A stretch of DNA of 29,004 bases, taken from IMG/VR virus record IMGVR_UViG_3300036846_000067, positions 1 to 29,004 of that record, one strand, 5' to 3'. This DNA comes from a virus. Numbering within the stretch: the stretch's first letter is position 1; each line of letters opens with the position of its first letter. Positions 9,146-28,993 of this stretch are shown here, piece by piece. The notes beneath the pieces were generated by a model. It was not told the DNA's origin and ran no database searches. It saw nothing but the letters and a program-made list of their open reading frames with translations. Position numbers and translations under genes: made by a program.

Positions 9146-12100
9146 TCACTCTTGATCCCCTGATGCTGTTTGGTTCTCAACCTCTGGCGTGGGCACGATG
9201 CTGTCTTCATCGACATCATAACCTGCAACGATGTACTTGAAGTAGCCAAACGTGCCAACCCAGTAGCCGTCAAGCTTGCCGCTCACAGTCTCCAGCGGCA
9301 CGTCAATCGGCGTGACCTCAGTGTTGTCTGGATCATCGTGGTAGCCGATGACGTTGGCCGTGACCCATGTGCCAAGTGGGAACTTGGGATCTTGAGGCGG
9401 AACTGCCGCTGCTGCCACTGGGAATCCGTGCCCTCCTGCACCAAGCCATTCCTTGGCTGATGCCATCGTCTCATGGTAGTCAGCGTTGCCTCGCCAGTTG
9501 TTGCAGTCATAGCACGCTGGCGCAAGGTTCGGCATGACGTACTTGCCACCTTCCTTGCCAGGCACCAGGCGCTCAAGTGTGGAAGTTGCTGGCTCCAACG
9601 TGCGACCGCAGTAGATACATGGCGCATGCTTCCCATCACCATACTCAGCAACAAGCTGATTCTGTAGACGCACACGCGTTTTTGAACCAGGACGATCATC
9701 GCCGCCAGCACGAGACGATGCGTCATGCCGCGCTTGAGCTGCTGCCTTGTCTTCCTCAGTGATCGTGGCGCCATATGACTCATACTTTTGGTCAGCGGTG
9801 TCTTGCGCACTGCTGATGGTTTCATCGCTCTGTTGCGTCTGAGCCAACGCAACAGCGTCATCCAGCTTGCCCTCATCGTACAGCTTACTGGCTGTCTGAA
9901 CAGCCATACCAGCGTTGTCCTTGGCATCATAGACGGCCGTGCGACGATCACCTACGGTCTCGCTGGCTGGTTTGCTCGCAGACTTGTCCTCACCACCATC
10001 GCCACCAAACTTGCCACCCTCTTGGCGTGGCTGACCTTCAGCATAGGCAACCAACGCTGACGCGACTTCAGCGCCACCACTCCAGTTTGCCGTGAAGTCG
10101 CATGAGCAGCCATCGTGATCGCCCGGCGCAAAGAACTCACGATCAGGGAACTCATCTTCATTGGCCAGCACATCGTCTGTCCAGCTGTTGAACTCAACGC
10201 CATCCAGTGCCTCGTGTGGCGGGAATGGATTGGGCGTGAAGCCGTGCACCCATGTGTAACTGTTGATACCAAGACCGTTGTCCTGCAAGGCACTGCTGAC
10301 TGCGGGGCCAGTCGTGACGCCAGCGGGTGGGATCTGGACGGCAACCGTTGGGTTGAACGATCCAGCATCGCTTGAGTGCAACAATGCCCCGCCAGCACGG
10401 GCGATTGCTTGCTTGACGATGCTTGGCGACACCAGCCGCGTGGTCGTGATCTCAGCATCTTCACCAACGTCGAGCACGTTGCTCGCGTCGCTGAGGTAGC
10501 TCATGGCCGTGCGCTGCAACTGATGTTGAAGAAACTCCCAGCCGTTGTCGTTGTAGCGTGAGAGCTGGCCGGCCAACTCGCTGAACTGCTCAGGCTGCAT
10601 GTTGAGCATGGAGCTGATCGACTCGATGGTGGACTTGTCAGCGTACTCAAGATATGCATCGTACTCAGCGCGCAATTGCTCCCACGCGTTGTTGAGCAGC
10701 ATCTGCTCGTCCAGACCAGCAGCTGCGATCATGGCATTGCTGATGAGGAAGCCAAGCTTGAAGTTGCTATGGCTTGCGCACCAGGCACGTCCTGCTGCCG
10801 TACGGCCAACTGTCGTGCGAATGCGCGCGCCTGCCTTCTCAAGAGCACGCGTCATGCTCGCGTTGGTCGCTGTCAGCAACTTGTCATACAATTCTTTCTC
10901 GATGCGTGCCAGGCTGCGATTGCCTTTGCGCAGAGCGGCCTGGCTTGGTGCTTTTGGGTCTGCTGCCACGAGTGCGAGTCCGGCAGCCAACCCAGGCGGC
11001 TGGTTAGTTGGTGCCTGCTGCCTGGGCTGACTGCCCTGTGGCGGACCCTCAACCGGCTGAGTGGCTGAGGGGCCAGCCAGGCCACCACCAGGCAAGGAGC
11101 CCTCATCGCCAGGTGGCGCCTGTCCTTGTGGTTCTGGCTTGACTTGGCTGATGTCAATCGTGTTGTCCATGCGCTTGATGATCTGCGCCACGATCGTGGG
11201 ATCAAGTCTGCTCTGCTTCAGCACAACGCGCGCAAGAATCTCTGTCTCACTCGGCGCATCTGTGTCGCTGAAGCCCATCGTGTCGCGCAAGGCAGCGTCA
11301 CTCAACGCGAAACGATCATACGCCTGCAAGGCGTCTTGGCTGCGATCAGGGTGCCGCACCAGACGTGTCGGATCATGCCAGACGATGACCTTGCTGACCC
11401 AGTCAGGATCAAGACCTGGTGTGTTCTGAAGCGCCAGTCGCAGGTAGCCTGCCGTCAGCGCGTCATCCATCACCATGACGAGTGGCTCAACGTGATCGCT
11501 GAACGTGTCGTCATCGATGGACCAGGCTGTCCAGTGGTTCAGATCACCCTTGCCAGTAAGGACTTCAGCCGGCAGGTCAAGCGTTGTCGCCATGCGGCCG
11601 ATCAACTCTTGGCGATCTTGCGAGCGCTGCGCCTCTGGCCTTGAGATCATGACCTGACGCACAGCTTGAAGCGCATCTGCGGGGCCACGGACCACGATGG
11701 GGAAGATCGCGCTAGCTGAGCCTTCATCCTGGATCGCAGCCATACCAGCTTGGATGAGCTCAGCCATGAACTCATCTGTCTCTTGATCGTTGGCATCTTC
11801 CTGAACGTTAGCCTTGACGACTGTCAGCTTGTCCGGCAGCATGAGTAGGCCTGAGTTGGCCAGGCGTGATCGTCCGCTCGCGCGTATGTCGCGCGACAAT
11901 ATGAGGAGTTCCTCACAGATGTCAAGCATCGCCGCGAACGGTGAGTCGGCCAAAGCCTTGCGACGTGGGTGCGGGTACCAGAGACGTTGCAAGAACACGC
12001 CATCTGGGATGGCCTGTGGCTGACTGCCCTCGATCCGCAACTGCAGCGTGCCATCTGACGTGGCCGTCACCTCAGAGACTGAGCGAATCTCCCAGACCTC

Positions 12101-12637
12101 TTCTGTGTTAGCTTGCTCAGGCAGCTGCGTCATGGGTGGCCAGCCAACCAGGAAGCACTCGCCAGCCACCTCAAAGTTCTCAGCCACGTCACGCTGCAGG
12201 CCACCCAGCGCAAGCGGCCCACCTGACGACAAACGCTTGAGCGCATCGTCGGCAGCTGAAATGATGTTGGCCGGGCAATCGGTGACCTCAGTCAACGGCA
12301 GTGGATCAAGCTCACCTGGGATGTATGTCGATGGCACCAGAACGATCTTGCGACAAGCGTTGCCCAGATACGTTGTCGCATAGCGCAACTCACCGATGGC
12401 ATCGCGGTAGGTCCACGCGTCCTCTTGCCATGGTTGCCGCAGCTTGTTGAGTCGCGCTGCCTCTGGCCGGTTGACACCCTGATTGCCCATGAGCTGCGTC
12501 GCTGACGCCAGCAACGCTCGCTGCTGGCGCTTGCCGTCGTGTGACGTGCCCCAGATCCTGCCGTTGCCTTTGCCCTTGCCACCATTGCTGCTGAAGCCTG
12601 ATGGCAATGGCTTTGGCCTGACCTTCAACAGCGCCAT
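9146..12637 (-). CDS. Portal protein fused to MuF-like and HNH endonuclease domains
   Basis: One 1163-residue frame carries three phage head functions. Residues about 40-490 look like a portal, the dodecameric DNA channel (RRKALADSPFAAMLDICEELL, then TLDLPAEVLTGKGDLNHW, then HDPTRLVRHPDRSQDA). A Pro/Gln/Gly-rich linker covers about 500-548. Residues about 560-850 are helical and end in a MuF-type Cys/His motif (HDGCSCDF, about 841-848). QPRQEGGKFGGDGG then leads into a linker and a HNH zinc finger at about 1007-1051 (CIYC, LERLVPGKEGGKY, NLAPACYDCN). In this HNH the usual DH is ER, a variant known in phage HNH proteins. A C-terminal tail of about 110 residues has a beta-rich module. GAGG precedes the ATG by five bases. 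No frameshift is visible between domains. Confidence 0.83.
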   Translation of the reverse strand: MALLKVRPKPLPSGFSSNGGKGKGNGRIWGTSHDGKRQQRALLASATQLMGNQGVNRPEAARLNKLRQPWQEDAWTYRDAIGELRYATTYLGNACRKIVLVPSTYIPGELDPLPLTEVTDCPANIISAADDALKRLSSGGPLALGGLQRDVAENFEVAGECFLVGWPPMTQLPEQANTEEVWEIRSVSEVTATSDGTLQLRIEGSQPQAIPDGVFLQRLWYPHPRRKALADSPFAAMLDICEELLILSRDIRASGRSRLANSGLLMLPDKLTVVKANVQEDANDQETDEFMAELIQAGMAAIQDEGSASAIFPIVVRGPADALQAVRQVMISRPEAQRSQDRQELIGRMATTLDLPAEVLTGKGDLNHWTAWSIDDDTFSDHVEPLVMVMDDALTAGYLRLALQNTPGLDPDWVSKVIVWHDPTRLVRHPDRSQDALQAYDRFALSDAALRDTMGFSDTDAPSETEILARVVLKQSRLDPTIVAQIIKRMDNTIDISQVKPEPQGQAPPGDEGSLPGGGLAGPSATQPVEGPPQGSQPRQQAPTNQPPGLAAGLALVAADPKAPSQAALRKGNRSLARIEKELYDKLLTATNASMTRALEKAGARIRTTVGRTAAGRAWCASHSNFKLGFLISNAMIAAAGLDEQMLLNNAWEQLRAEYDAYLEYADKSTIESISSMLNMQPEQFSELAGQLSRYNDNGWEFLQHQLQRTAMSYLSDASNVLDVGEDAEITTTRLVSPSIVKQAIARAGGALLHSSDAGSFNPTVAVQIPPAGVTTGPAVSSALQDNGLGINSYTWVHGFTPNPFPPHEALDGVEFNSWTDDVLANEDEFPDREFFAPGDHDGCSCDFTANWSGGAEVASALVAYAEGQPRQEGGKFGGDGGEDKSASKPASETVGDRRTAVYDAKDNAGMAVQTASKLYDEGKLDDAVALAQTQQSDETISSAQDTADQKYESYGATITEEDKAAAQARHDASSRAGGDDRPGSKTRVRLQNQLVAEYGDGKHAPCIYCGRTLEPATSTLERLVPGKEGGKYVMPNLAPACYDCNNWRGNADYHETMASAKEWLGAGGHGFPVAAAAVPPQDPKFPLGTWVTANVIGYHDDPDNTEVTPIDVPLETVSGKLDGYWVGTFGYFKYIVAGYDVDEDSIVPTPEVENQTASGDQE

Positions 12638-12979: not shown

Positions 12980-13432
12980 CTATCTGCTCACCTTGGCTGC
13001 GCCATAGAAGTGGCGCGCCAGCACGATCTCAATGTCGGTGCCCAGAGGCAACGGCATCTGCTCGGCTGACGTCGCGCCGTTCGATCGTTTGGTGATCCTT
13101 GCCTTGGCGTCAAGTTGCCTGGTGGTCATGCTCTTCAACTTGCTGCCGCAGCCACACCCAGCTTGTGGGTTGATCGTGATCGCCTCACCATCTGCCGTGC
13201 GGGCAGCCAGTACCTGCTTGCGACGCGACACGCCAAGGTTGCCCAACGTGTTCTGCTCGATTTCAACGATGGTGTTGACGATCAAGTCTGGCTCATGAGG
13301 CCAAGCCTGTGCCTCCACCCAGATCCTGAGTTGATCGTCATCCAGCCTTATGCGTGCCTTGCCCACCGTGCGCTTGGCTCCATCGCTGGCCAGCACAACG
13401 ATGGCTGGGAAGATGTCGATCATTATGGTCAT
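12980..13432 (-). CDS. Hypothetical protein with a GCGCGS motif
   Basis: The product has 150 residues from the ATG at 13432, which overlaps the terminase stop as ATGA; the longer frame to 13573 would sit inside the terminase gene. The N-terminal half is beta-rich and amphipathic (MTIMIDIFPAIVVLASDGAKR), and around residue 90 is AGCGCGSKLKSM, a Cys-rich turn that could bind metal or serve as a flexible loop. I do not recognise a family. Similar small proteins with a GCGCGS/R motif occur beside terminase or portal genes in actinophages, so a head-assembly or packaging accessory role is plausible but unproven. Confidence 0.6.
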   Translation of the reverse strand: MTIMIDIFPAIVVLASDGAKRTVGKARIRLDDDQLRIWVEAQAWPHEPDLIVNTIVEIEQNTLGNLGVSRRKQVLAARTADGEAITINPQAGCGCGSKLKSMTTRQLDAKARITKRSNGATSAEQMPLPLGTDIEIVLARHFYGAAKVSR

Positions 13433-15117
13433 GCCGTGCGCCTCACCGGGATGCGGGCTGAACGAGCTGTTTGGCTGTGACGCTGACTGAACGTGGACGC
13501 AGATCGCATGTTGGGCATGAACGTCTGGGGTGGCTTGGCGATCACCATCGTGCTGCTGTTGATTGCTTCCCATATGCCATAGAGGAATGCGTCAGCGTTG
13601 TCTGGCGATCTTCCCAGACGTGACTTCAGATCTGCCTTAGCCTCAACCTGGATGCGACCCTTGTTGATCGTGTAACGTGGCACGACTAGCTGTGCCTCAA
13701 GGTTCTCAAGATCGTCTGCCTGTGAGGTGTCAACCTGGCCACGCTGGAAGAGCAGCCTTGCTTCCCACCACAGCTCAGCACGCTTGTTGACGTACAGCTT
13801 GAACTGGTTGGCTTGCTCCGCACCATTGAAGCCTTCAACGATGGGTGGCCTGCGCGTCGATGTCGCCCAACTTGCGGCTGAGGATTTGGTGCGCTCGGTG
13901 ATGCGATGACGCACCAAGCCGATGATACCGAACCCAACACCAACAGAGTCAACCACAACTTTGTCAGGGTACGTTGCGAGTATTGTGTTGAAGATGAACT
14001 CAGCGACCTGCTCTGGGTCACTTGATCGGAATCGGTGTTCAGTTGTTGGCCTGTTCTGCGGGAGGATCAAGCGGCAGACGGTCTCATCACCATCATCGCT
14101 GCCTGCGACGTCCACCCCAAGCACGCGCAAGCCGGGAAGCAACCCAACGTCAGGATGGGTGGTGGTAACCCTGGCGTGTGGTTGCGTGTTGCCTGTCGTG
14201 CCTGGGGTGACGTCGAGCGGCAGCAGAGGAGGACTCTGGGACTCACCAGACTGCCGCTCAGCATATGGGACTCTGGCTGCGACAAGATCGTGCAGCTTGA
14301 TGACTGATTTGGTGTCGATGCTTGGGAACTCTGCCTCAACCTTGCTGAGCCAGAACGGGTGATCTTCACCCCATGCCTTGCGCCTGTTCTCAACCCATTC
14401 CTTGCTCAGCAAGACTTCATGGAGCAACTGGCTCACTGGCTCACCTGTGAAGTTGGGCGTGTCCCACGCTGAGATCTTGATCGTGTGATAGCCGTGCTTC
14501 GCCGGGTTGTTGTGGATGTCTGCGAACATGGAAGATGGATCGTCAGGGTTGCCGATCATGAGGATCTTGGCGTTCACGTTGGTGGCAAGAGTTTCAGCTG
14601 CCTCGATGATCGCAGTGGGCACGCCGCTCGCCTCATCGATGATGATGAGTGGGTAGCGCGCGTGAAGACCTTGGAACGCTGCCGGGTTGTAGTCAGCTGG
14701 CTTGCGGCCAATCCCAGCCAGGTATGAACCAATCCACCACTCTGTCTGGTTCACGCGCCCTGGCAAGTCTGCCGCTTCATGAAGCTGGTTGATCTCCACC
14801 CAAAGAATGCCGCGCACCTGCGTGGCTGTTGGCGCTGTTGTGATGACTCGCGCCTGACCAAGCGGGTGAGTGTCGAGCCACCTGCTTGCGATCACGCTGG
14901 CTGTGAAACTCTTTGAGCTGTCGTGACATGCCCGCACAGCCACGCGTGAGTGCTGATCGACAGCTTCCATGATCTCAACTTGCTTCGACCAGAACGTGAT
15001 GTGCGGGAGAGTCAGTGAGGCCCAGCCAAGTGGATCATCTGAGACAGTCAGCTTGCGCGCCTGCTTGCTGGCTGCGCGCAATGGAGCCAGCGGATCGTGG
15101 CTCTCAATGGCGATCAC
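13429..15117 (-). CDS. Terminase large subunit
   Basis: The motor and nuclease of DNA packaging, about 562 residues from the GTG at 15117. The open frame extends to 15381, but that part overlaps an upstream small gene and has no terminase-like sequence. A Walker A-like segment reads VRACHDSSKSF at about 65, so the usual Gly before Lys is Ser. Walker B is LIIIDEASG, followed by a coupling-motif-like ILMIGNPDDP. The C-terminal RNase H-like nuclease shows its acidic residues in VLGVDVAGSDDGDE, DKVVVDSVGVG and PDNADAFLYGIW. It follows the small terminase and a disordered small protein. No strong ribosome site precedes the GTG, so the exact start is uncertain (a GTG at 15159 is also possible). Confidence 0.9.
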   Translation of the reverse strand: MIAIESHDPLAPLRAASKQARKLTVSDDPLGWASLTLPHITFWSKQVEIMEAVDQHSRVAVRACHDSSKSFTASVIASRWLDTHPLGQARVITTAPTATQVRGILWVEINQLHEAADLPGRVNQTEWWIGSYLAGIGRKPADYNPAAFQGLHARYPLIIIDEASGVPTAIIEAAETLATNVNAKILMIGNPDDPSSMFADIHNNPAKHGYHTIKISAWDTPNFTGEPVSQLLHEVLLSKEWVENRRKAWGEDHPFWLSKVEAEFPSIDTKSVIKLHDLVAARVPYAERQSGESQSPPLLPLDVTPGTTGNTQPHARVTTTHPDVGLLPGLRVLGVDVAGSDDGDETVCRLILPQNRPTTEHRFRSSDPEQVAEFIFNTILATYPDKVVVDSVGVGFGIIGLVRHRITERTKSSAASWATSTRRPPIVEGFNGAEQANQFKLYVNKRAELWWEARLLFQRGQVDTSQADDLENLEAQLVVPRYTINKGRIQVEAKADLKSRLGRSPDNADAFLYGIWEAINSSTMVIAKPPQTFMPNMRSASTFSQRHSQTARSARIPVRRTA

Positions 15118-15133
15118 GCTTGGCTGCTCGCTG

Positions 15134-15385
15134 CTACTCAGCCTTGTGCTCTGGCTCACCCTCAGGTGGTGGCTGCTCTGTCTCAGGTGGCGCAGCGTCA
15201 CCATGGCCGGCAGCCATGTCGTTGGCCAGCTTCTCAGCGTTGGTCCACTGCTTGCTGCCGGCACCCTCTTCCACCACTGGGTTGCCTGCCGGGTGCGGCG
15301 CGCTGACGTTGGAGTCAACGTTGAATGGGCCTGCTTCTTGCTGGCTTGGGTTCTCGTGCTGCTGCTCTGGTGTCTGCTCACTCAT
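15134..15385 (-). CDS. Small disordered acidic protein between terminase subunits
   Basis: The product has 83 residues rich in Glu, Gln, Pro and Asn, starting MSEQTPEQQHENPS and ending with a PPETEQPPPEGEPEHK stretch. It is probably intrinsically disordered except for a short helix (SKQWTNAEKLANDMAAG). The ATG at 15385 overlaps the small terminase stop as TGATG. The window has no other gene of this kind. A packaging accessory or adaptor role is possible from location; I recognise no family. Confidence 0.6.
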   Translation of the reverse strand: MSEQTPEQQHENPSQQEAGPFNVDSNVSAPHPAGNPVVEEGAGSKQWTNAEKLANDMAAGHGDAAPPETEQPPPEGEPEHKAE

Positions 15386-16072: not shown

Positions 16073-16594
16073 CTAGTCAAGATCCCTTGGGTCAAGCATC
16101 TCCTCATGAAGTTCTGGGATCTGCCGCACACGCCTGATGTACGTGAGGCCATGCCTGATGGCATCGTTGGCGTGCGGCTGACCAGGCAGCCATTGGTTCG
16201 TTTGCTTGAGATGATCGTCACTGATGGTGGTCTTGGCCATGCTCGCTGACTGGGTACACCATCTGATGCGATCTTGCCATAGCAACTGGGTCAAGGCAGC
16301 TGTGATCCTCACTGGTGACAAGAACCAACGTTGCTGGTTGAGGATGCGAGGCACAAAGTCCTCGATCACCACAGCAACGTTGCCATGATTCTTGCGCGCC
16401 ACAAGGATCAACTTGTACAGGTCGGCTGCCTGTTGGTGCTCATCACCACCAATCTGAGTGGCGATGATGCCAAGATCGCCATCGCTGTGCGGGACTTGAT
16501 CGAGCCTGGCGTCAGGCACCAAACACCAACCTGTTGTCCCACCAGGATCGATGGCGAACGCGCTGACAACGCTGAATCTGTCGATCTTGGGCAC
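16073..16594 (-). CDS. RuvC-like Holliday junction resolvase
   Basis: This RNase H-fold nuclease cuts branched DNA such as Holliday junctions, needed to clear recombination and replication branches before packaging. Acidic residues appear as FAIDPGGTTGW near the N-terminus (first catalytic Asp), VVIEDFV (Glu), and HANDAIRHGLTY near the C-terminus (Asp), the usual RuvC-like trio. The product is about 173 residues. I choose the GTG at 16594, which has AGGAG five bases upstream; the frame is open to a GTG at 16627, but that start lacks a ribosome site and lies in the repeat region. The gene stands first after the noncoding repeat array, between replication and packaging genes. Confidence 0.8.
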   Translation of the reverse strand: MPKIDRFSVVSAFAIDPGGTTGWCLVPDARLDQVPHSDGDLGIIATQIGGDEHQQAADLYKLILVARKNHGNVAVVIEDFVPRILNQQRWFLSPVRITAALTQLLWQDRIRWCTQSASMAKTTISDDHLKQTNQWLPGQPHANDAIRHGLTYIRRVRQIPELHEEMLDPRDLD

Positions 16595-16616
16595 CACATC
16601 TCCTATGTCATAAGGG

Positions 16617-16646
16617 ATTTTAGACACAAGACGTTAGACGACACAA
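16617..16646 (-). promoter_or_regulatory. Possible weak promoter before the resolvase gene
   Basis: The minus strand has TTGTGT (16646-16641) and TAAAAT (16622-16617) spaced 18 bases apart. The -10-like box is good, the -35 box matches only three of six positions and lies within the repeat array. It would start transcription near 16610, just before the AGGAG that serves the GTG at 16594. This is a suggestion only. Confidence 0.25.
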
Positions 16647-16912
16647 GACGTTGACCAAGACGTTTGTCGATCATCGCCATAGCCCTGTTAGACGGGCTAG
16701 ACGTTTTAGACGTTTCATTGGCAAAGTTTGTAATGGTAACAATTTTCAAGATCGTTTAGGGAGTGAGAGCTACAGGAGAGATAGGCTCGGAAACGTCTAG
16801 TCCGTCTAGAACGGCTGTGACAGTCCGATGACACCCGTTTGCCCCGATTCACAAGACGTTACCTCGTTTTTCTGCGTCTAGGTCAACCCGCTTGATCAAG
16901 CGCGCTAGCCAG
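16628..16912. repeat. Repeat-rich noncoding region with AGACG(TTT) iterons; origin or multi-site operator candidate
   Basis: This 285-base gap has no plausible gene and is AT-richer (43-45% GC in 16681-16800) than its surroundings. It holds about eleven copies of a core AGACG, mostly as TAGACGTTT or CAAGACGTT. Forward copies begin near 16629, 16636, 16646, 16658, 16690, 16699, 16708 and 16854. Reverse copies (CGTCTA) lie near 16794, 16803 and 16875. Two 18-base blocks, TAGACGG[G/A]CTAGACGTTT, at 16689-16706 (plus) and 16791-16808 (minus) form an inverted pair around an 84-base centre that includes an AT-rich stretch (16716-16760). This layout resembles phage or plasmid origins with iterons and an unwinding region, and also operator arrays. 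The neighbours, a primase-helicase and a resolvase, favour an origin, which is inference. Confidence 0.65.
16889..16902. repeat. 14-bp perfect palindrome just after the primase-helicase gene
   Basis: CGCTTGATCAAGCG reads the same on both strands and starts 11 bases past the stop of the primase-helicase gene on the minus strand. No T-tract follows on either strand, so it is a poor intrinsic terminator. It could be a binding site for a dimeric protein or a transcript-end hairpin. It contains a central GATC. Confidence 0.45.
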
Positions 16913-19831
16913 TCAAAGTTCGTGTCTGTCGTCCCCAACGAAACGATATGGCACACGCCAGGCTCTGGTCTGAGGTGCCTTGTTGGGCCACAAGACTGAT
17001 TTCGATGGTTGACGATCCATGTTCGTGAAGCCAGGCCTGCCCTCTAGCAGCTTGCCTAACACCCGCGAGCCATTGGTGCCAGCTGCGATCAACTTGCCAA
17101 GCAGCGACTGGGTGTTGGTGTCCCATGGCTGATACGATCGTGCGAAGCTGCTACCATCCAAGCCACCAGATGAGTCAATACCTGTGACCCTGAAGCTGCC
17201 CTCACCACGCGATTCAGCCATGGCTTCATTCTGAAGGTGAATTTTGATCTCTTCACACAACCCAGTCGTGCCAACAACCGTGCCATCAGCGGCCCTGACC
17301 CGCACCCAGCGTGAATCGCTTGTGAAGTATTGATCGATTTCATCCTCAACAGCGACGTGCGTGGCGCTCTTGATCGATGGCGCAATGTTGGGCAAGTAGT
17401 CGCCACCACGAGCCAGGCATCTGAGCCAGCCATCAAGCGCCCATTGCAGCCAGAAGTCAGCCATCGCTTGTGAGGCCGCGGACTCACCATGTCGGCCACG
17501 CACAAGTCTCAGACCACGCTGCATTGCCTTGCTCACAGCGTGATTCATGGGCTTGGCGTCGCCAGCTTCAAGGTCGATGACGATGCCCTTGGCAGTCTCT
17601 TCAGACATGTCTTGGCCAGGTGGCTCCTTGCTAGCCATAATGCGTTGGGCACGCTCAATCTCCTCAGGTGGCCTGAAGCGTATCGCCCAGGGGATGACAA
17701 CCAGCCTCGCAGCGATGGCGTCGTTGAAGCCGCCAGCCTCCATGAAGTTGTGGTTGCTGGTCAGCAGAGTTGTTGCGACGTTCTCAACCAGGCTGTAGTT
17801 CATGTATGCCTTGCGGGCCGTGAAGGATTGCTCGCCGGTGAGCATCTTTGCTGCTTCAGGGTCGATGCCCTGCTCGCCAACCTCCTTGATCACCAGCATC
17901 CTGCGACCAGACAAGCCAGCCAGTGCATAGATCTTGTTGTTGCCAGACGCCTTGCGGGCCAGAGCATCAGCCTGGATTTCCCATGAGAGTGGGCCAAGGG
18001 CATGCTGCAGACCTTCCAGCAGAGTTGATTTGCCAGAGCGCGTTACGCCTTGCATCACGAACAACTTTGGCGACATCTGACCCCACAGACACCAGCCCGC
18101 AATCTCTTGCAGTGTGAGGGTTATCTCTGGGTCACGATGCCAGTCAGAGAGCAATCGCTGGCAACTTTCACGCGTGGCGATCACATTAGGGTCATCACCT
18201 GTCACCAATCTGCCTCGCGTTGTCTGCGACATAAACAAGTTGCGTCCACTCAAACCAGTGACAACCTTGATCTTGTGCCCAACGTTGTTGCCCGCATCAA
18301 CAAAGGGATCTTCAAGATCGACAACCCCATCAGGCGTTGCGAGCAGGTAGTAATGGCTATCCCAAGTCTCACCAAACTCAGGCAATGGCCTGAACATTGA
18401 GCTGCGCTGTGCCATGCTGACAATGTTGTTGATCTGCCCTGTTGACTGTGATCGTTTGGCCCACTTCTTCAGCATGGCGCCAACACCCTTGTTGCCAAGG
18501 GCAAATTGCTGGTCGGCCTCCTCACTGACCCTGCCTGCGATCATGGTGGCATGATCGTGTATGCGTGTCTTGGCTTCCTCCCAGTGATAGCCTGACCACC
18601 ACATCCAGCCGTGAACTTCATGGAACATGAGGAATGGGAAGTAGTTTTGAAGTCGATACATGTTGGCAAGATCAGACGTCAGCACATCTGGATCACGCGA
18701 GTCCATGAGTGCTCGTTTGAAGTGGCCCAGGATATGGCCTAGCGTTATCTCATCACCAGGCTTTGGCATGTGCTCATCGACAGATCGCTTGTACGCTTCA
18801 GCACCACTGGCCTCAGCCAGCTGTGCGTACGTCCAGCCACTACGCGATGCTTTGTACGCCATGTGAAATGCACCCTGGTGTCGCGAGCCTTGAGACATAG
18901 CATAGCTCACACCCCACTCAACCAGTTCTTCAAGTGAAGCTGTCCTGAAGTTGACACCAGCACTAGCAACAGGCGGCAGCATGGTGTCTGAGAGCACAAG
19001 ATCGACATCAAGCAGCCCATCAGGGAAGTTGCCAGCGATCACCTTGAACAGCCAAGATGGTCCGAGTGAGTGAGGATCAGCGCCAGACCTGCGACGTTCC
19101 TCACGCGACCACACGATGAAGTCTGATAGGTCCCAGCCATCCATCATTCCAGTTGCTTCAAACCCGGGACTGGCACGCAGGTCAATGGCAATGATCTCAA
19201 GATCGCTCAACTCATCGTGCTCAGCGATGAATGGCTTCAGCGTGTTGTACCAGATCTTGCTGCCTCGACGCCCAGCCTCATCGCAGTCGAACACGATGGC
19301 CAGATTCTCAAAGCTTGACAGCAAGGCTATCGCTGGTGCCTCACCACCCATCTCAGCCAAGATGTGCTCAAGCCTGACTGCCGCTGTCTCACCATCTGTC
19401 CAGCACGTCGCGGCGAACCCCGCACAGCGCAGCATGATCGTGTCCCACTCGCCGGCGCACAGGAACAACGTTCTGTTCCACTTGATCGGCAGTGGATCGC
19501 TTATCTGCCTTATGATCCATGGCAAGTCCCAAAGTCTGCCGTATGTCTGACCACTGATGTGGCCACGTCCACCAGACAGCCACTTTGTTTCCTTGTCGCC
19601 ACGCCATGCCTTGGCGAATCTGATCTGGCCATGGACATCACAACATGGCAAGCACCATCGGCCGCTCTCTTGATCCCAACCAAGTCCAAGTGATGATGCC
19701 ATGATCATCTTGTCTGGATCAATGAACTTACGTCGGTCAGCCAGTCGCTTTGCCAGATGTCGTGTCAGTGCTGCTTGGCGAGTCGCCCACCACTCATCAT
19801 TGACCTGTTCATGTCTCCAATCACGAGCCAT
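16913..19831 (-). CDS. Primase-helicase (TOPRIM plus SF3/D5-type ATPase)
   Basis: This 972-residue protein would unwind DNA and make primers at the fork. Residues about 40-240 form a primase region with Cys residues (WCLPCCDVHGQI) and a TOPRIM-like fold: LFLCAGEWDTI (Glu128), then AIVFDCDEAGRRG (Asp182/184), then DGWDLSDFI. A middle domain lies before a D5/SF3 ATPase with Walker A GVTRSGKST (595-603), a Walker B-like RRMLVIKEVGEQ (643-654, with Lys-Glu), sensor TTLLTSNHN (687-695) and an Arg finger region (AIAARLVVIPW, about 705-715). The C-terminal 200 residues likely form a DNA-binding or regulatory tail. The ATG overlaps the upstream stop as TAATG. It lies directly next to the repeat array, fitting an origin-binding initiator. 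Confidence 0.88.
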   Translation of the reverse strand: MARDWRHEQVNDEWWATRQAALTRHLAKRLADRRKFIDPDKMIMASSLGLGWDQESGRWCLPCCDVHGQIRFAKAWRGDKETKWLSGGRGHISGQTYGRLWDLPWIIRQISDPLPIKWNRTLFLCAGEWDTIMLRCAGFAATCWTDGETAAVRLEHILAEMGGEAPAIALLSSFENLAIVFDCDEAGRRGSKIWYNTLKPFIAEHDELSDLEIIAIDLRASPGFEATGMMDGWDLSDFIVWSREERRRSGADPHSLGPSWLFKVIAGNFPDGLLDVDLVLSDTMLPPVASAGVNFRTASLEELVEWGVSYAMSQGSRHQGAFHMAYKASRSGWTYAQLAEASGAEAYKRSVDEHMPKPGDEITLGHILGHFKRALMDSRDPDVLTSDLANMYRLQNYFPFLMFHEVHGWMWWSGYHWEEAKTRIHDHATMIAGRVSEEADQQFALGNKGVGAMLKKWAKRSQSTGQINNIVSMAQRSSMFRPLPEFGETWDSHYYLLATPDGVVDLEDPFVDAGNNVGHKIKVVTGLSGRNLFMSQTTRGRLVTGDDPNVIATRESCQRLLSDWHRDPEITLTLQEIAGWCLWGQMSPKLFVMQGVTRSGKSTLLEGLQHALGPLSWEIQADALARKASGNNKIYALAGLSGRRMLVIKEVGEQGIDPEAAKMLTGEQSFTARKAYMNYSLVENVATTLLTSNHNFMEAGGFNDAIAARLVVIPWAIRFRPPEEIERAQRIMASKEPPGQDMSEETAKGIVIDLEAGDAKPMNHAVSKAMQRGLRLVRGRHGESAASQAMADFWLQWALDGWLRCLARGGDYLPNIAPSIKSATHVAVEDEIDQYFTSDSRWVRVRAADGTVVGTTGLCEEIKIHLQNEAMAESRGEGSFRVTGIDSSGGLDGSSFARSYQPWDTNTQSLLGKLIAAGTNGSRVLGKLLEGRPGFTNMDRQPSKSVLWPNKAPQTRAWRVPYRFVGDDRHEL

Positions 19832-28297: not shown

Positions 28298-28993
28298 TTA
28301 CTGGACGTGACCGTGCGTGTCGTATGTCCTCAACGTGTGGAGCCGATCATGGTGTGCTCGCAGCGAGCCAAACAGATGTTGATCACGCGACGTGAGCGGC
28401 TCATCTGATTTCATGAGCCGATGGAACGTGTTGGCGTGCCGCATGAAGACATTGTCACTCATCTTCGATACTTCTGGAAACATTGGCTTGCCGTCAAGGA
28501 TGTAGTCAAACCTCCCATCTGGAGCTGGCTGTGGACCATAGATGAAGTTGCCCTCAGTCTGGACTGGCCACCACTCGCACAGTCCAGCTGAGATATTGGT
28601 GAAAAGCCTGCCATACCACTCACGATCATGTCTGAGCAGCGATGCCTTCTGGCCGGCGTGAAATCGCTTGACTCCCCACCACCATGGTGGATCGATCTTG
28701 CGTGCGATGATCGCCTGCTCATGGTAGCCCATCTTGATCATGCGATCATGCACCTTGAACGTGTCCGTCCAGCCTTGGACTTTCCATTCAAATAGCATCC
28801 TGGCGATGTACTGGGCAAGGAAGTCATCGTGCCCGATCCACATCTTGATGCCAGGGTGCCACTGCCAGCCCTTCTTGATCTTTTTGTTGGTTTCCAAGAT
28901 CGTCATGGCAGCGTTGATCTGATGGCCAAGATCTTTCTCACTCAATGCCGCAGCGTTGATCTTCTGATCACTGTACGGCAGATATGTTTGCAT
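28298..28993 (-). CDS. Pyrimidine dimer DNA glycosylase family (endonuclease V-like), divergent
   Basis: The product has 231 residues and starts MQTYLPYSD, close to the MQTFLPY start of this family. It keeps a WHPGIKMWIGHDDFLAQY segment, then FEWKVQGWTDT (usual EW..RGY.DT), then FHAGQKASLLRHDREWYGRLF (usual FH..HRSNLLRK.P.hY). Family members remove UV-damaged bases. It departs from the family at the LGKQR-x-E part (here LGHQINAA), so the usual catalytic Glu may be missing or moved. The C-terminal 80 residues have no family match. The ATG at 28993 lies 11 bases from the window edge, so upstream context is unknown. It may be an active variant or a non-catalytic relative. Confidence 0.72.
   Translation of the reverse strand: MQTYLPYSDQKINAAALSEKDLGHQINAAMTILETNKKIKKGWQWHPGIKMWIGHDDFLAQYIARMLFEWKVQGWTDTFKVHDRMIKMGYHEQAIIARKIDPPWWWGVKRFHAGQKASLLRHDREWYGRLFTNISAGLCEWWPVQTEGNFIYGPQPAPDGRFDYILDGKPMFPEVSKMSDNVFMRHANTFHRLMKSDEPLTSRDQHLFGSLRAHHDRLHTLRTYDTHGHVQ

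Follow-up and report, generated by a model that had tools for sequence, protein, structure and literature searches.

The window analysed here is the whole stretch of a 29-kb metagenomic phage contig (an IMG/VR virus record; 29,004 nt). Nearly all of its genes lie on the - strand, in a series that encodes a DnaE-like polymerase, ThyX, a primase-helicase and, beyond a gap, a RuvC-like resolvase, a 185-aa protein, a terminase, a portal protein, and a major head protein. The primase-helicase gene (16913-19831, - strand; 972 aa) was assigned by Pfam, PHROG, and profile matches, and the resolvase gene (16073-16594, - strand) by its match to phrog_1981 and by relatives annotated as 'RuvC-like resolvase'. 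The gene annotation bore out the earlier placement of a candidate replication origin between these two genes. As the main genes are all on the - strand, the repeat array in the gap follows the 3' end of the primase gene and precedes the 5' end of the RuvC-like gene; the gene for the terminase large subunit (13429-15381) lies about 1 kb further downstream. Among isolated phages, the relatives of the window polymerase and RuvC-like protein are mostly actinobacteriophages.

The initial annotation described 285 noncoding bases at 16628-16912. These bases are noncoding, but the gap is probably wider. The open frame of the RuvC-like gene reaches 16627; however, AGGAG at 16600-16604 precedes a GTG at 16594, and in the alignment the RuvC-like proteins of relatives also start near the residue encoded by this GTG. 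We regard GTG 16594 as the probable start of the gene. With this start, the noncoding junction between the likely RuvC-like start and the primase stop extends over about 16595-16912, and the array, with the whole proposed origin, falls entirely inside it. An Rfam search gave no match.

The array is built on an AGACG core, of which about eleven copies had been noticed. We counted 11 in 16628-16912, eight on the + strand (16629, 16636, 16646, 16658, 16690, 16699, 16708, and 16854) and three on the - strand (16794, 16803, and 16875), and none of 2000 dinucleotide-preserving shuffles of the region gave any 5-mer 11 times. The longer AGACGTT occurs seven times in the region and seven times in the remainder of the 29 kb. 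Two 18-base blocks that face each other across 84 bases and have one mismatch were found exactly at the coordinates given before, 16689-16706 and 16791-16808. As an imperfect pair, the inverted arms extend to 29 nt with 83% complementarity, and they fold with a z of -3.6. The RuvC-side arm (16678-16712) carries words at 16689, 16698, and 16707, each 9 bases apart, and the primase-side arm (16791-16819) carries two - strand words at the same distance (16794 and 16803). Outer direct sites at 16657, 16645, 16635, and 16628 (spanning 16628-16662) lie at 41, 53, 63, and 70 counted from 16698, and two outlying words stand near the primase end (16853-16880), AAGACGTT on the + strand at 16853 and TAGACG on the - strand at 16875. 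With words of 8-9 bases at a period of 9-10, the array does not have the form of a classical plasmid iteron of the RepA/RepE type, in which direct iterons of about 18-22 bp follow helical-turn spacing.

Between the arms lies an AT-rich centre (16705-16790), the proposed DNA unwinding element. A drop in GC content to about 44%, against about 57% around it, had been noted for the region. This drop fits the 84-base centre (41.7%, against 56.7% for the window) but not the 285 bases as a whole (49%). In a nearest-neighbour stability profile, the least stable 50-mer of the whole contig is 16704-16753 and the least stable 80-mer is 16705-16784, within the centre. Such a profile had been suggested as a check, and it agrees when the relatives described below are included: four of six contigs have their least stable 80-mer at the junction, which ranks second or third in the other two, and in the junction of L132/G008 the 80-mer ranks fourth least stable in its contig. 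In every contig, the junction centre thus belongs to the least stable DNA.

Searches with the polymerase and the primase gave six further contigs that share the order primase-helicase, gap, RuvC-like gene (L080/G001, L081/G002, L083/G003, L117/G005, L118/G006, and L132/G008). Their primases are 30-35% identical to that of the window and their polymerases about 63%. Single-protein scans with the window primase and RuvC-like protein found no relatives, which came from the polymerase and from alignments, and a search of a genome collection found no relative. Exact-word searches of viral contigs (TAGACGTTTTAGACG, 78 matches; TTTTCAAGATCGTTTAG, 13 matches) gave no syntenic relatives, and these matches look like chance. 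In G003 (L109-L111), one gene is split between the first and the last open frame; thus, this 52.9-kb contig is circularly permuted and represents a near-complete genome. End repeats were not recorded for it.

The exact repeat of the window was absent from all six junctions of the relatives, and its word TAGACGTTT is not conserved in them. Each relative has a word of its own (GGTATCTA, GGTGACTA, CGTATCTT, GGCGGATAC, AGGTATCTT, and AAGCGATAC), and in each genome the words cluster only at the primase junction. The leading 7- or 8-mer of each of the seven junctions far exceeded the shuffles. When six junctions were pooled, self-similarity at lag 9 reached 109, where 14 was expected and the largest value among 200 shuffles was 31; lag 10 gave a second peak. 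Four stretches served as controls. Three of them, one open frame and two gaps, were unremarkable; the fourth, a joined short-gap pair of Mycobacterium phage MarkPhew, had a lag-8 excess, so the lag test on a single genome is not perfectly clean. Inverted arms usually flank a centre of about 80-110 bases, with 84 bases between the arms in the window, 78 in L083 and in L117, 79 in L132, and about 92 in L080. The arms of L080 are weak, L118 has no clear inverted pair, and L118 and L081 fit the arm layout loosely.

The order of the direct sites is also kept. Counted from the first site, they lie at 0, 9, 41, 53, 63, and 70 in the window; at 0, 9, 40, 52, 63, and 73 in L080; at 0, 9, 42, 54, 64, and 73 in L083; at 0, 9, 41, 53, and 64 in L132; and at 0, 9, 41, 63, and 72 in L117. 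The fit of L081 and L118 is partial. The site-order score of the seven genomes was reached in none of 300 gap-permuted or uniform placements; for L117, L118, and L081, this scoring used variant words picked by eye. When four genomes were scored with one simple word each, the score was reached in 4 and 1 of 2000 placements (P about 0.0005-0.002), and a test of three genomes was weaker, with a P between 0.002 and 0.13 that varied with the tolerance and the null model. In the sequences compared, the spacing is kept at the junction while the word has changed. The expectation that relatives would carry the same repeat at the same junction therefore failed for the word and held for the junction, the 9-base spacing, the arms, the site order, and the unstable centre. 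Because the layout is conserved while the word changes, we judged that taking a non-conserved repeat as a refutation was too strict.

A shared core of the centre, CAAGATCG, was considered and rejected; it occurs commonly throughout the genome of most of these phages, as GATC enrichment explains, and only in G002 is it a single copy located in the junction. In the window, CAAGATCG is the commonest 8-mer, and GATC occurs 317 times, about three times the expected 109. GATC is also over-represented in G004 and mildly in G003, and not in G002. Second clusters of such words lie far from the primase junction in two genomes: 850 bases of G001 (L104:13080-13940) contain about twelve CAAGATCG/CGATCTTG words, frequently in the form TCGATCTTGA, and the first 620 bases of G005 (L125:60-616) contain seven CAAGATCG/CGATCTTG words.

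The plan of the junction matches that of two annotated replication regions. In the record of Lactobacillus phage A2, a rep_origin is annotated at the 3' end of the primase gene ORF35, whose product is homologous to the window primase family over D5_N, the helicase, and the C-terminus (hhalign E 1.4e-23). As in the window, inverted words, here ACGGGAGGA, surround a very AT-rich centre, TATATATA. Unlike those of the window, the A2 words are spaced by 10-12 bases, the primase has another N-terminal domain, and a DnaE polymerase is not encoded adjacently in the stretch examined. Phage P4 likewise combines a TOPRIM primase with a D5/SF3 helicase, and its crr lies directly 3' of the alpha gene, at a distance of 45 bases. 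The annotated type-1 repeats of crr are 8-base words in 9-base tandem pairs together with inverted copies; the tandem pairs of ori are spaced by 10-11 bases, and those of crr and ori together by 9-11. P4 differs from the window in having a separate ori 4.7 kb away, a crr that consists of two 120-bp repeats, other words (TGTTCACC), and another site order. Direct protein similarity to P4 alpha is weak; the D5_N and DUF5906 domains are shared. P4 alpha binds its origin repeats by a winged-helix domain (PMC4234260). Several features of P4/A2-type origins are present at the window junction: short words, both tandem and inverted, at the 3' end of a primase gene; a low-stability AT-rich unwinding region within the array; and D5_N, SF3 helicase, and primase domains encoded beside it.

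Similar arrays occur in cultured phages. In MarkPhew, the gene order is alike in kind, with a gap at 47.0-47.4 kb between the gp71 primase and the gp72 RusA-like resolvase; the gap contains AGCACAGAT words in 9-base tandem pairs and perfect 18-base inverted arms 90 bases apart. The MarkPhew primase is only about 25% identical to that of the window, the resolvase belongs to a different family, and the gap is not annotated as an origin. The gap after a D5-type primase gene also holds an array in Mycobacterium phage Fionnbharth (AGGGACAT, spacing 10-11), Gordonia phage LittleFella (ATGCGTAACC, spacing 10), and Acidithiobacillus phage AcaML1 (TGACGGGTC, spacing 9). In Microbacterium phage Karate (L100:6020-6506), a tandem ATTGTGG array with lag 9 is located in the gap before the primase gene, not after it.

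The 972-aa product of the adjacent gene has N-terminal TOPRIM-like motifs, which were read from the alignment, followed by D5_N, an SF3-like ATPase, and a C-terminal domain with predicted winged-helix topology. Pfam gave D5_N (2.6e-12) and DUF5906, PHROG gave DNA primase (1e-38), and the profile matched poxvirus D5 structures (1.6e-12); Pfam Pox_D5 had no match in the window primase family. The structure model of the full-length protein was poor, and the C-terminal piece alone was usable. Its model has winged-helix topology (pLDDT 74) and aligned in VIA-align with the C-terminus of AsfvPrimPol, a D5-type primase-polymerase (Z 5.4), with weak matches to Rep initiators; Foldseek with the same model found nothing significant. 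The C-terminal model is at most suggestive of a winged-helix DNA-binding domain.

Taken with the conserved layout and the annotated A2 and P4 replication regions, the junction is very probably an iteron-type phage replication origin recognised by the adjacent D5/SF3 primase-helicase. The candidate origin of the initial annotation is in this way supported by comparison. We infer from the sequences the binding of the primase-helicase to the words, melting and initiation at the junction, and the fork direction. The protein would bind the 8-9 base words through its C-terminal winged-helix domain, and the 9-base tandem words, with inverted arms on both sides, would place two initiator sets face to face. 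SF3 rings would then melt the AT-rich centre, and the TOPRIM domain would prime synthesis for extension by the phage DnaE-like polymerase.

A different mechanism at the same place is that of plasmid pRN1, whose origin, located 3' of an SF3 replication gene, is a stem-loop without a conserved sequence; the same origin type has been proposed for Bordetella phage BIP-1 (PMC4234260). Here the replication protein would recognise an extruded hairpin and not the words. The precedents resemble the window in their inverted structure, unconserved sequence, and position just 3' of an SF3 replication gene, and the folding of the window arms is in keeping with them. They differ in being described as a stem-loop without iterons and in having a Prim-Pol and not a TOPRIM primase (PMC4234260). 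The additional direct copies outside the stem, at kept spacing, speak for word recognition, and the stem itself is poorly developed in L080 and L118. Moreover, in BPP-1, a close kin of BIP-1, the arms at L144:4443-4546 themselves consist of inverted tandem words of 9 bases (AAACGAGGC). We consider hairpin recognition unlikely; as it would still make the junction an origin, it is a rival on mechanism only, and its probability overlaps with that given to the iteron-type origin.

Readings in which the junction is not an origin appear less probable still. Multi-site operators are known in phages, and the array stands directly 5' of the RuvC-like and late genes, which run in one direction throughout; a phage regulator could thus bind the words to repress or activate the downstream RuvC-like, terminase, and structural operon. 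This operator reading is weakened because the words cluster at one place, the primase junction, and not at other gaps, and because a sigma-70-type promoter was not found in the window gap. The layout also follows the primase gene though the downstream gene varies (RuvC-like, RusA-like, and others), and an operator leaves the unstable centre unexplained, so we hold it to be improbable. The nearby terminase and the circularly permuted G003 contig, as in headful packaging, would suit a packaging site (pac) at which the terminase small subunit binds repeats before the large subunit gene. However, no domain is recognisable in the neighbouring 185-aa protein, the arrays of MarkPhew and P4 accompany the primase gene without a terminase gene in the neighbourhood examined, and extreme low DNA stability, as at the junction centre, is not typical of pac sites; a pac site is accordingly very improbable. 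Arm-type repeats around a core give an attachment site or a partition centromere a similar outline, but neither a tyrosine or serine integrase nor ParB was found in the seven contigs, some of them fragments, in searches with positive controls, and we give this possibility hardly any weight.

GC skew, which had been suggested as a further check of the origin, gave no support by the usual rule, under which the minimum marks the origin and the maximum is a sign of the terminus. In every contig that can be judged, the detrended cumulative skew peaked within or close to the junction, and in four (the window, L083, L118, and L132) the maximum fell inside it. As much of the skew step sits in codon positions 1 and 2 and the step coincides with the border between the replication and structural gene modules, we read it as neither for nor against the origin.

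The origin plan itself is already known from P4/A2-type systems. Fixed spacing with drifting words, spread over phages of several bacterial phyla, appears to be undescribed in the open-licence papers searched. In the window family, six sites appear to hold fixed positions relative to one another as the word drifts; thus, the spacing may be the conserved code, and each initiator may co-evolve with its own word. We propose, tentatively and with rather less confidence than for the origin itself, that the D5/SF3 primase-helicases of phages from several bacterial phyla share one origin grammar, in which words of 8-9 bases recur every 9-10 bases and are inverted on either side of an unstable centre, with the whole placed at the 3' end of the primase-helicase gene itself. 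If true, this grammar would unite P4 crr, the A2 origin, the 'stem-loop' of BIP-1, and unrecognised origins in cultured actinobacteriophages. To our knowledge, the replication origin is not known for most actinobacteriophages. A rule that searches 3' of D5-type primase genes for tandem words of 9-10 bases, with inverted copies on both sides of the least stable DNA, could find origins without a conserved sequence, and it yields testable predictions for cultured phages of Mycobacterium smegmatis and Gordonia. Diverged words at fixed spacing would also offer a natural experiment on initiator-origin co-evolution.

Elsewhere in the window, the product of the portal gene (9146-12637) is 1163 aa long, and its residues 873-1062 form an HNH endonuclease domain. 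The portal homologues of G002 and G003 have 850-890 aa, and the HNH domain is possibly an inserted or fused homing endonuclease. A pyrimidine dimer DNA glycosylase domain (Pyr_excise, 4.7e-9) was recognised in the protein encoded at 28298-28993.
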